From Halobaculum sp. MBLA0147 (GTDB lineage: Archaea; Halobacteriota; Halobacteria; Halobacteriales; Haloferacaceae), in NCBI RefSeq assembly GCF_041361345.1, contig NZ_JBGKAD010000001.1, positions 1,054,001 through 1,118,000 of the forward strand: a stretch of 64,000 bases of DNA, read 5' to 3'. A program made the translations under genes and the position numbers. This document shows, piece by piece, positions 44,765 through 50,901 of the stretch. Position 1 is the first letter of the stretch. Every line of letters starts with the position of its first letter. The notes below the pieces were generated by a model. It was not told the origin of the DNA, did no database searches, and worked only from the letters and a program-made list of their open reading frames with translations.

Positions 44765-44924
44765 TCGACCGTGAGCGGCCCCGCAGAGCCGGTAGCGACG
44801 GGGAAGAGACACACGAGAGGTGCGGCCGCGACACGGACCGCAGCGGCACGTCCGACACCCACGCGGACGACGTGTGTCGGACGACCCCGTGGATTCTTCT
44901 CTCTGGCACACACACGTCGGGGTG

Positions 44925-46961
44925 ATGACAGACGACCGGCCGGCCGACGCGCTGGCGACGGGGCTGTCGGCGTCCGCCGCGAGCGACCGAACTGCGGCCG
45001 CCGAGGCGCTCCAGGCGCGTGCCGACCACGACCCCTCGGCCGTCGCGAGTGTCGCCCCTGACCTCGCGGCCGGGCTGACCGACGTGGACGGCGCGGTCCG
45101 GACGGCGACGGCCGCCGCGGTGGCGGACGCGGCCGACGCGGACGCGGCGGCGGTCGGCGCACTCGCCGGCCACCTCGCCGACCGGGTCGCCGACGACGAT
45201 CACCTCGCCGTTCGTCACCACGCGGCGTACGCACTCGCCCGGGTCGGCGAGACGGACCCCGTCACGGCACAGCGTGCGCTCCCGGCACTCGTCGACGCAC
45301 TCGCGGCCGCCGACGACGCACTGCGCCGCCTCGCGACGCTCGCCGTCGCCGCCGTCGCCGACGCCGATCCGAGTGTCGTCGCGGAGGAACTGGCCGCCGG
45401 CCCGGAGGCGGTGACGGCGGAGGGGTCGACGGGAGGTGACACCACGAGTGCCGACGACGGTGTCGGAGACGACGCAACCGCGGAGACGATCGACCCCGAG
45501 ACGCTCGCGACGCGACTCGCCTCGGCGGTGACGGACGACGACGCCACCGTCCGGCGACGAGCGAGTCGGGCACTCGCACGACTCGTCGAGGCGGACACCG
45601 GCGTGCCGCCGGTCCCCGACCTCGACGCGATCCGGACCGCACTGGTCGCCGACACGGCCGTGGTGCGACGCGACGCGGCGTTCCTGCTCGCGCGGGCCGC
45701 GGCGACGGCACCCGAGAGCGTCCCGGACGACGAGACGCTCGTCACGGACCTCCGGGACCGACTCTCCGACCACGGGGCAGTCGCAGTCCACGCCGCCGCG
45801 GCGCTGTCGGATCTCGCCGACCGGCGGCCGGCGGCCGTCGCGCCGGCCGTGCCGGACCTCGCGACGGCGGCGACACACGACCGCCCGGACGTGCGTGCCA
45901 ACGCGACGCTGGCGCTGGGACGACTCGCAGAGACGGCACCCGACCGCGTCGCCGAGACGGTCGAGACACTGGCGGAGTCGGTGACCGCCGACGCGGCGGT
46001 CGTCCGTGCCAACGCCGCCTTCGCGTTGTCGCGGTTGGCCGAGGCCGACCCGGAGGCGGCCCGACACGCGATGGAGCCACTGCTCGCGCGCCTCGAAGAC
46101 GACACGGAGACGGACGCGGTCCGCGGCCACGCCGGCACCGCACTCGACACGCTCCGGTCGGAGCTGTCCCCGGGGGCGACGCTCGGCCCGCCGGGAGACG
46201 ACTCCGGAGAGGTCCCGCGTGGCGCCGCGGCCGTCTCGAACGGTCGGGGCGTCGCCGACGCTCCCGGCGGAACGGGACCGGACACGTCCGCCGGACGGAC
46301 GCATGGAGACGACAACGGGGAGTACGCCCGCGGTGCGCCGACGAGTGGGTCCGGTGACGCAGAGCACGACGCTGCCGAGCCTGCCGAGGCCGCGACGACC
46401 CCCGTCGACTCCGACACGCCAACCGACGACGCCGTCGACTCCGACACGCCAACCGACGACGCCGTCGACCCCGACACGCCAACCGACGACGCCGTCGACC
46501 CCGACACGCCAACCGACGCCGTCGACCCCGAGCCCGCTGGCGAGTCCGCAGACGCCGACACCACGGATCCCTCCGAGTTCGACGAGGCGGTCGCGTTCGG
46601 CGACGACGCCGCGTTCGACGCCGAGGGAGAGTTCGTCGAAGAGGGGGAATTCGTCGAAGAGGGGGAATTCGTCGAAGAGGGGGAATTCGTCGAGGAGGGG
46701 GAGTTCGCCGAGGAGGCGACGTTCGAGACGGACGACGGCGACGCGTTCGGTGACGACGGCGCCGGAGAGGCGGAACCCGAGTCGACCGGCGACGACACGC
46801 GGGCGGCAGAGGCCGGCTTCGCCGACGAGGGGGCGGAGGACGTGTTCGACGGTCCGGACGTGACCCCGTTCGCGTCGGAGTCGACGGACACCGCTGGGCA
46901 GGGAGACGGCGGCAACGCGGAGGACCGACCGTCCCACGGCGACACGGCCGACGAGGACTGA
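44925..46961 (+). CDS. HEAT-repeat protein with acidic, internally repeated tail
   Basis: A 678-residue soluble protein. Residues 1-410 are HEAT-like helical repeats of about 35-45 residues (AVRHHAAYALARVGETDP, VRRRASRALARLVEADTG, VRANATLALGRLAETAPD, VRANAAFALSRLAEADPE). A G/D/T-rich insert lies at about 165-185. The tail 411-678 is disordered and acidic with two minisatellites: a 10-residue unit (DTPTDDAVDP) and a 6-residue unit (EGEFVE). It probably serves as a protein-binding scaffold; partners are unknown. ATG 44925 was chosen; GTG 44922 is equally possible. Confidence 0.75.
   Translation: MTDDRPADALATGLSASAASDRTAAAEALQARADHDPSAVASVAPDLAAGLTDVDGAVRTATAAAVADAADADAAAVGALAGHLADRVADDDHLAVRHHAAYALARVGETDPVTAQRALPALVDALAAADDALRRLATLAVAAVADADPSVVAEELAAGPEAVTAEGSTGGDTTSADDGVGDDATAETIDPETLATRLASAVTDDDATVRRRASRALARLVEADTGVPPVPDLDAIRTALVADTAVVRRDAAFLLARAAATAPESVPDDETLVTDLRDRLSDHGAVAVHAAAALSDLADRRPAAVAPAVPDLATAATHDRPDVRANATLALGRLAETAPDRVAETVETLAESVTADAAVVRANAAFALSRLAEADPEAARHAMEPLLARLEDDTETDAVRGHAGTALDTLRSELSPGATLGPPGDDSGEVPRGAAAVSNGRGVADAPGGTGPDTSAGRTHGDDNGEYARGAPTSGSGDAEHDAAEPAEAATTPVDSDTPTDDAVDSDTPTDDAVDPDTPTDDAVDPDTPTDAVDPEPAGESADADTTDPSEFDEAVAFGDDAAFDAEGEFVEEGEFVEEGEFVEEGEFVEEGEFAEEATFETDDGDAFGDDGAGEAEPESTGDDTRAAEAGFADEGAEDVFDGPDVTPFASESTDTAGQGDGGNAEDRPSHGDTADED
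46411..46525 (+). repeat. In-frame 30-bp minisatellite in the HEAT protein tail
   Basis: CCGACACGCCAACCGACGAC plus GCCGTCGAC and one base repeats at 46,411, 46,441, 46,471 and 46,501. Copies are nearly identical at the base level, not only in amino acids, so they arose recently by duplication. Confidence 0.85.
46623..46712 (+). repeat. In-frame 18-bp minisatellite in the HEAT protein tail
   Basis: Five copies of GAGGGGGAATTCGTCGAA with slight variants, encoding EGEFVE repeats. The AT-containing GAATTC words are unusual in this GC-rich gene. Confidence 0.85.
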
Positions 46962-49420: not shown

Positions 49421-50437
49421 CTACGCCAGATCGAACCGCTCGCGGATCTCCGCCACCGACTCCCGGGTCGCGGCGTCCGGTTCCGTCTCGTCCGGCTCCA
49501 CCGGCGGCCGGCCGTCGAACGTCTCGTGGACGATCTCGACACCCTCCGACAGCGTGTCGAGGTCGTAGCCGCCCTCCAACACGAACCCGAGCCCGGCGTC
49601 GGCCGTCTCGGCGGCACTCCGGAGGCGGTCCGTCGCCAGTGCGTACCCCTCCGTCGAGAGACGCATCCGCGAGATCGGGTCGTGGCGGTGTGCGTCGAAC
49701 CCCGCACTCACCAACAGCAGATCGGGGTCGTACGCGACCAGTGCCGGGACGATCGCCTCTTCGAGCACGTGGAGGTAGTCGTCGTCGCCCGCGCCGGCCG
49801 CCAGCGGGACGTTCAGTGTCGTCCCCGCGCCCGCACCCTCGCCGGTCTCCGAGAGCCCACCGCTCCCGGGGTAGATCCCGTCCTCGTGGACGGACGCGTA
49901 GAACACGTCCGGGTCGTCGTAGAAGATGTCCTGCGTGCCGTTGCCGTGGTGGACGTCCCAGTCGACGATCGCGACACGCTCGACGGCGACCGCCGCGTCG
50001 TCGAGGACGGCACGTGCGGCGACGGCGGCGTTGTTGACGAAACAGAACCCCATCGCGTCGTCGCCGACGGCGTGGTGGCCCGGCGGCCGCCCCAGCGCGA
50101 ACGGCGTCTCGCGGCCGATCTCGCCGTCGAGTGCCTCACGGGCGGCCCACTCCGCCAACCCCGCCGACTTGCGTGCGGCCGCCCACGTGCCGTCGCTGGC
50201 GACGGTGTCGGGGTCCCAGTTGCCGCCACCCGACTCGCAGAAGGCGGCGACTTCGTCGACGTAGTCCGCGTCGTGGACGGCCGTGATCGCCTCCCGCGTG
50301 GCGGGGTCGGCGTCGACGTAGGCGACCCCGTGACTCCGTTTCAGTCCCTCGCGGACCGCACGGAGTCGGTCGGCCGTCTCCGGGTGTCGCCGACCCGTGT
50401 CGTGCCCGAGACAGTCCTCGCTGTAGCCGAACCGCAT
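49421..50437 (-). CDS. Histone deacetylase-family protein
   Basis: A zinc amidohydrolase of the HDAC/acetoin-utilization/acetylpolyamine amidohydrolase family, 338 residues. Catalytic features: [20 protein letters not shown] (His-His pair), [20 protein letters not shown] (zinc Asp and His), [12 protein letters not shown] (zinc Asp) and LEGGYDLD near the end. It is encoded one base after the stop of the histone gene on the same strand, so the two are co-translated. That makes histone or another DNA-associated protein a plausible target, though polyamines are an alternative. Confidence 0.88.
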
Positions 50438-50438
50438 C

Positions 50439-50870
50439 TCACTCGAACAACTCGAAGTACGTCTCGATGTCCTCGGCCTGTACGGTCCGGCGGTCGGCGT
50501 GGCGTGCGAGGATCGCCGCCGCGCGGGCCACGTTGTCGGCGTAGTCCTCGAGCACGTCCGCCAGCGCGATCCGCGCGTCCATCGAGACCCGGTAGCCGTC
50601 GTCGATGTCGAGCCGCGCGATCCGATCGACCGGGGCCACCGGCAGCGACAGGTCCGCACGGTCGACGACCTGCTCGACGCCGAAGTCAGACGCCATCAGG
50701 GTCTTGCGGCCGTCCTCGTCGGCGACGGCCGCCGCGTCGACGGCCAGTTCGGCACCGCGCGACTGGATCCGGCGGGCCAGTTCCTCGGCCGCGTCGGCGC
50801 TCACCCGGAGGTCCCCGGCGTTGCGCCGGATCACTTCGTCGACCGGCGCGAACGGCAACTCGACGCTCAT
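50439..50870 (-). CDS. hstA: Archaeal histone with two fused histone folds
   Basis: A 143-residue protein containing two histone-fold halves in one chain, as known for haloarchaeal histones. The first is [20 protein letters not shown] then [16 protein letters not shown], the second [20 protein letters not shown] then [16 protein letters not shown]. It is more acidic than methanogen histones. Its promoter (CGTTATACC, minus strand) lies 23-31 bases upstream. It heads the two-gene operon with the deacetylase. In haloarchaea this histone may act more as a global regulator than as bulk chromatin. Confidence 0.92.
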
Positions 50871-50892: not shown

Positions 50893-50901
50893 GGTATAAC
50901 G
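50893..50901 (-). promoter_or_regulatory. TATA box of the histone-HDAC operon
   Basis: CGTTATACC on the minus strand, ending 23 bases before the histone ATG at 50,870; it excludes longer starts up to 50,927. Confidence 0.65.

Follow-up and report, generated by a model that had tools for sequence, protein, structure and literature searches.

A Histone-hdaI Gene Pair of Haloarchaea and the Candidate Targets of Its Deacetylase

The window, a 64,000-nucleotide stretch of the Halobaculum sp. MBLA0147 genome, contained a histone gene and, one base downstream, hdaI, a gene for a histone-deacetylase-family protein. The explanation that we favored, with moderate confidence, was that the two genes form a coupled haloarchaeal pair, that HdaI deacetylates several proteins, and that its vital target is not this histone. 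The pair itself is already known from Haloferax volcanii, and the idea that the histone is a substrate of HdaI was in print in 2010. Specifically, the passages on HdaI in a 2010 review (PMC2946573) described the H. volcanii histone gene and hdaI as overlapping and cotranscribed. The same passages named the histone as a reasonable HdaI substrate, with candidate lysines that were conserved in haloarchaea and with experimental proof missing.

The histone gene, hdaI, and their junction

The histone gene was located at positions 50439 to 50870 of the minus strand and ended in a TGA stop codon. Its 143-residue product was identified as a doublet archaeal histone: PF00808 matched in two stretches, NF043032 matched as well, and the two folds lay in one acidic chain with 31 aspartates and glutamates, 16 arginines, and 1 lysine. 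The structural model had a pLDDT of 92.9, and its best PDB match by E-value in Foldseek was 1f1e, the doublet histone of Methanopyrus kandleri, which likewise has two histone folds per chain and was 30% identical to the window histone in the structural alignment. The window histone is the same kind of protein as the HstA and HpyA histones of other haloarchaea, including HpyA of Halobacterium salinarum. In the sections of the literature that deal with this type, the HstA/HpyA-type cluster was given a median length of 143 residues and a pI of 4.7 (PMC13260811), DNA binding was stated for HpyA and HstA (PMC10128011), and HpyA was called the sole histone of the H. salinarum genome. Such sections also described face-to-face (miniature) histones from Halobacteria, which look unrelated to the window type, and noted that, in most datasets, a histone of this kind ranked with the most highly expressed genes. 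The genome that contains the window yielded one match to the window histone and one to PF00850.

The hdaI gene was located at positions 49421 to 50437 of the minus strand. The junction, read on the minus strand, was TTCGAG TGA G ATG CGG, in which the histone stop codon, one base (position 50438), and the hdaI start codon follow each other; the one-base spacing given in the initial annotation was therefore exact. Among 80 loci that were fetched by similarity to the window histone, in all of which an HDAC gene followed the histone gene, the junction fell between -4 and +13 nt in 78, of which 15 had a spacing of exactly +1 nt. A Shine-Dalgarno-like motif preceded hdaI in 1 of the 80. The tight junctions and the near absence of Shine-Dalgarno motifs fit the idea that hdaI is translated by ribosomes finishing the histone, and the sequences suggested that the pair is probably an operon-like, translationally coupled unit. 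The operon-like pairing that had been proposed for the window was thus borne out, and it was conserved across the haloarchaea sampled. The spacing does not by itself imply that the two products are made in a fixed ratio, as the initial annotation had supposed.

In the mechanism that we propose for this genome, one promoter before the histone gene would lead to transcription of both genes. Ribosomes ending the histone would then bring about hdaI translation at stop and start codons that touch or overlap and that have no Shine-Dalgarno sequence. A possible TATA-like element, GTTATA, was read by eye at positions 50895 to 50900 of the minus strand, which is 25 to 30 nt before the histone ATG, and a loose scan of the 80 loci detected a comparable box in no more than 37. 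The element gave a weak indication of a promoter that would produce a leaderless transcript spanning the histone gene and hdaI.

Conservation and genomic setting of the pair

The pairing was not limited to this genome, which was one of the points on which the initial annotation had made its proposal depend. We surveyed an evenly drawn sample of 116 genomes of the order, which were at least 90% complete and represented 45 genera. A window-type histone and a match to the HdaI query were present in all 116, and HdaI was encoded beside the histone, on the same strand, in 112, which is more often than chance would produce. The gaps in the 112 linked genomes, which were taken from match ends and are uncertain by some nucleotides, ranged from -4 to 283 nt and were 30 nt or shorter in 101. 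An HdaI-type match (at least 57% identity) that was located solely away from the histone was found in none of the 116 genomes, and one genome (G064) carried a second, unlinked HdaI copy besides the linked one. In seven genomes of one genus (g18; L091 to L097), the gap was about 135 to 283 nt. In L089 (G095), the hdaI match lay in several pieces in different frames, which would fit a disrupted gene or an error in sequencing.

The four other genomes (G006, G008, G009, and G026) kept the histone, but their best HDAC matches were 40 to 42% identical to HdaI, were located elsewhere, and fell outside the HdaI group in our tree. Judging from these matches, HdaI is absent rather than moved in the four genomes. 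In two HdaI-less genomes (L085 and L086), the histone gene was still located between rpa and cca; in two (L083 and L084), neither rpa nor hdaI was next to the histone gene. By eye, the histone start in L083 and L084 overlapped the end of an upstream universal stress protein-like gene.

Of the 140 haloarchaeal loci that were fetched, a set that may include repeats of one species, 132 had an rpa gene upstream of the histone gene, on the same strand and 38 to 1378 nt before it. When the histone-adjacent genes of L085 were used to scan the 80 loci, rpa was detected upstream of the histone gene in 76 loci and cca was detected downstream in 44; the rpa query passed the cutoff of NCBIfam NF005551, single-stranded DNA binding protein. 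The window pair was away from this usual rpa-histone-hdaI locus and adjoined a divergent eL43-rpoP-pcc1 group. In its own genome, the pair matched at C1:1103424-1104870, rpa at C1:252246-253700, and cca at C1:2358122-2359564. Because rpa and cca are common beside the histone in relatives, the window genome is the one that was rearranged, and its histone-hdaI pair seems to have been relocated as a whole. In one relative (L040), the pair was at the same new site beside eL43. We considered and rejected the idea of a scrambled neighborhood: the window's neighbors recurred in only 1 of the 80 loci (L040), but rpa and cca recurred at the frequencies given above. The pair was also found without rpa upstream in L046, L081, L082, L089, and L102, with 1.6 to 2.1 kb of upstream sequence examined in L089 and L102. 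In L046, whose histone was 92% identical, the pair was at yet another location.

The H. volcanii locus resembles the window in that the same two genes, hstA (HVO_0520) and hdaI (HVO_0522), are in close contact, but the H. volcanii genes overlap and those of the window are one base apart. The rpa2 gene of H. volcanii (HVO_0519) has the locus number that precedes hstA, whereas rpa is about 0.85 Mb away in the window genome, and the position beside eL43-rpoP-pcc1 is unlike that of the H. volcanii pair. Elsewhere in the window, a long acidic open reading frame on the plus strand (44820 to 46961) had runs of the short repeated units EEGEFV and DTPTDDAV in its translation.

Outside the haloarchaea, the association was looser. 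In 80 genomes of the phylum, 68 of which were outside the order, match tables inspected by eye showed histone and HDAC matches a few kilobases apart on one strand in eight. In the seven of these loci that were fetched (L173 to L179), the HDAC match started about 0.9 to 4.6 kb after the start of a singlet histone, and cca was located beyond it in all seven. Thus, a loose histone-HDAC link may be older than haloarchaea. The idea that the linked nonhaloarchaeal HDACs are HdaI orthologues was unsupported: in a midpoint-rooted tree of 51 rows, which included 20 HdaI sequences picked from 134 distinct ones, the HdaI sequences grouped in a single clade (100/100), and a separate clade held five of the seven nonhaloarchaeal enzymes. 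The HDAC of L178 was in a different branch than those of L175 and L176, which belong to the same family, as if it had been replaced in place.

HdaI and its likely class of substrate

HdaI is a zinc-dependent, class II-type HDAC family protein of 338 residues, and PF00850 (Hist_deacetyl) covered residues 18 to 304 with an E-value of 5.1e-88. The predicted catalytic residues were H121, H122, D161, H163, D248, and Y291, of which we take H121 and H122 to be active-site histidines, D161, H163, and D248 to be zinc ligands, and Y291 to be the catalytic tyrosine. In 134 distinct HdaI sequences, H121, H122, and H163 were conserved without exception, D161 was present in 133 (one Q), D248 in 131 (three gaps), and Y291 in 131 (two gaps and one S). 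The structural model had a pLDDT of 82.4, with values below 50 for residues 118 to 132, which include the active-site histidines.

When structures were ranked with VIA-align among Foldseek's top chains, the best rows for HdaI were Kdac1, HDAH, and HDAC6, and the best 50 rows (Z of 36.9 to 38.7) consisted of Kdac1, HDAH-type, HDAC6, and HDA15 chains. HDAC6, bacterial HDAH, and Acinetobacter Kdac1 share the fold over about 320 residues and the catalytic residues with HdaI, at about 30 to 36% identity. In the PDB sequence search, the top rows were two-domain HDAC6 chains, whose scores sum two domains. Among single-domain chains, HDAH led with 211 bits, and single-domain HDAC6 reached up to 157 bits; acetylpolyamine amidohydrolases reached up to 145 bits, and HDAC10 reached 120 bits. 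Chains named dimethoate hydrolase or propanil hydrolase scored 205 to 207 bits, and given these relatives, a small-molecule amide may be a substrate of HdaI.

In acetylpolyamine amidohydrolases, the active site is constricted by an insertion that forms the dimer. HDAC10 has a gatekeeper glutamate after the SAGFD motif, and we presume that it corresponds to HdaI position 255. This position was isoleucine in 131 of the 134 distinct HdaI sequences, with two gaps, one proline, and glutamate in none; HDAC6 differs from HdaI here, with leucine in its second domain and lysine in its first. Isoleucine rather than glutamate at position 255 speaks against a polyamine substrate. As far as sequence can tell, a protein is a more likely substrate than a polyamine, and the best reading of HdaI is that it is a protein lysine deacetylase. 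Built like the class II zinc-dependent members of that group, it would remove acetyl groups from the lysines of several proteins. Sensitivity to trichostatin A in H. volcanii is cited in PMC3510453.

Lysine K56 and the targets of HdaI

The sole lysine of the window histone, K56, is encoded at positions 50703 to 50705 of the minus strand and lies in the GRKT loop that follows the long fold 1 helix. We take K79 of eukaryotic H4 to be its equivalent, and K56 is possibly a DNA contact. Position 56 was lysine in all 136 distinct haloarchaeal histones (of 141), and the fold 2 counterpart, position 128, was arginine in 135 and lysine in 1. The pseudo-symmetric doublet has RKT in the DNA-side loop of fold 1 and RRT in fold 2. 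The K56 codon was AAG in 73 of the 80 loci and AAA in 7. Lysine number ranged from 1 to 7 across the 136 distinct histones, such that K56 was the sole lysine in 43 and some relatives had several (2 to 7 in the others). Eukaryote-type acetylation goes with a lysine-bearing tail or several lysines; the window histone has one lysine, and its helix 1 begins at residue 7. Special lysine depletion was rejected as an account of this composition, since nine neighboring proteins contained 1.45% lysine, which gives an expectation of 2.1 per 143 residues.

The conservation of K56 went beyond genomes with HdaI. The residue was kept in the four HdaI-less genomes, and singlet-histone stretches of the phylum (28 distinct stretches from a profile over 37 loci) contained RKT in 26 cases and RRT in 2, which indicates that K56 is an ancient residue. 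For the same reasons, we rejected the invariance of K56 as proof that it is a deacetylase target. The window histone would be at most one of the targets of HdaI, via K56 in the DNA-side loop, and acetylation of K56 would be expected to weaken DNA binding.

Published genetic work on H. volcanii, as described in the relevant passages, also bears on the question. The chromosomal hdaI gene was deletable solely with a plasmid copy present (PMC2946573), and HdaI was reported to be essential (PMC2946573 and PMC6267482, citing 2009 work). HstA could be deleted with a growth defect that was complemented by hstA alone (PMC10128011, 2023). If HdaI is essential and HstA is deletable, then the vital substrate of HdaI would be something other than this histone. 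The exception would be a toxic effect of the histone in its acetylated form, in which case HdaI may be essential as long as the histone is present. Although they are drawn from different studies, the two findings suggest that HdaI has another vital target. In the open-access literature, we found no paper with this essentiality-versus-dispensability argument or with a histone lysine count. The essential role of HdaI in H. volcanii would thus be exerted via another protein, and the candidates are RPA2 and the abundant face-to-face (miniature) histone. The gene for RPA2 (HVO_0519) precedes the histone gene at the common locus, and published work describes the protein as essential in H. volcanii. 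RPA proteins from 118 loci contained 5 to 18 lysines; six alignment columns were lysine in 60% or more of them, and one column was lysine in all 118. By this comparison, RPA has more conserved lysine sites than the window-type histone. The main text of one paper that was searched for acetylation of RPA2 and the miniature histone did not mention RPA.

The initial annotation had taken the tight spacing to strengthen the idea that the enzyme acts on the histone or on DNA-bound proteins rather than on polyamines. The preference over polyamines held up, as HdaI has no HDAC10-type gatekeeper, but the histone as main substrate fared poorly because of its single lysine, the persistence of K56 in HdaI-less genomes, and the mismatch in essentiality. 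A reading in which the histone is nevertheless the main substrate, with HdaI deacetylating K56 and acetylated histone being harmful without HdaI, seemed to us possible but unlikely. It would account for the near-universal adjacency of the pair, for an invariant lysine in fold 1 opposite an arginine in fold 2, and for the absence, rather than relocation, of HdaI in the four unlinked genomes. However, K56 persists in these four genomes, though they keep another HDAC, and it appears to be ancestral given the singlet stretches; the H. volcanii genetics points the same way. In addition, according to PMC2946573, histone acetylation was not detected in a proteomic study of two methanogens, and the main text of an H. 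volcanii acetylome paper mentioned histones five times, always in connection with eukaryotes or in cited titles. A related proposal is a one-lysine switch, in which acetylation of K56, reversed by the HdaI made together with the histone, loosens one half of the doublet particle; we consider it rather improbable.

It is also improbable, to a slightly greater degree, that the adjacency has little functional meaning and was inherited from an old rpa-histone-HDAC-cca block, with HdaI as a housekeeping deacetylase. The frequency of rpa upstream and cca downstream and the seven nonhaloarchaeal loci with cca beyond a histone and an HDAC are what such a block would leave behind, but the histone-hdaI junction is far tighter than the spacing to rpa (at least 38 nt), and the pair stays joined where rpa is not upstream, as in the window. 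A role of HdaI as a deacetylase of polyamines or other small acetylated amines is very unlikely: acetylpolyamine amidohydrolases and HDAC10 were among the sequence matches, with single-domain HDAC6 scoring little higher, but the gatekeeper position, the lead of HDAH, and the composition of the best 50 structural rows all argue against it. Thus, the reading that we retain is a coupled pair whose deacetylase has several protein targets, with the vital one being other than this histone.

Reversal of histone acetylation in archaea bears on the origin of eukaryotic chromatin regulation. Our survey sharpens the 2010 suggestion, since only one lysine recurs throughout the 136 distinct histones examined from haloarchaea. 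The genetic findings in print already suggest that the vital target of HdaI is a different one. If the one-lysine switch were true, then K56 acetylation would be a minimal, asymmetric histone mark.
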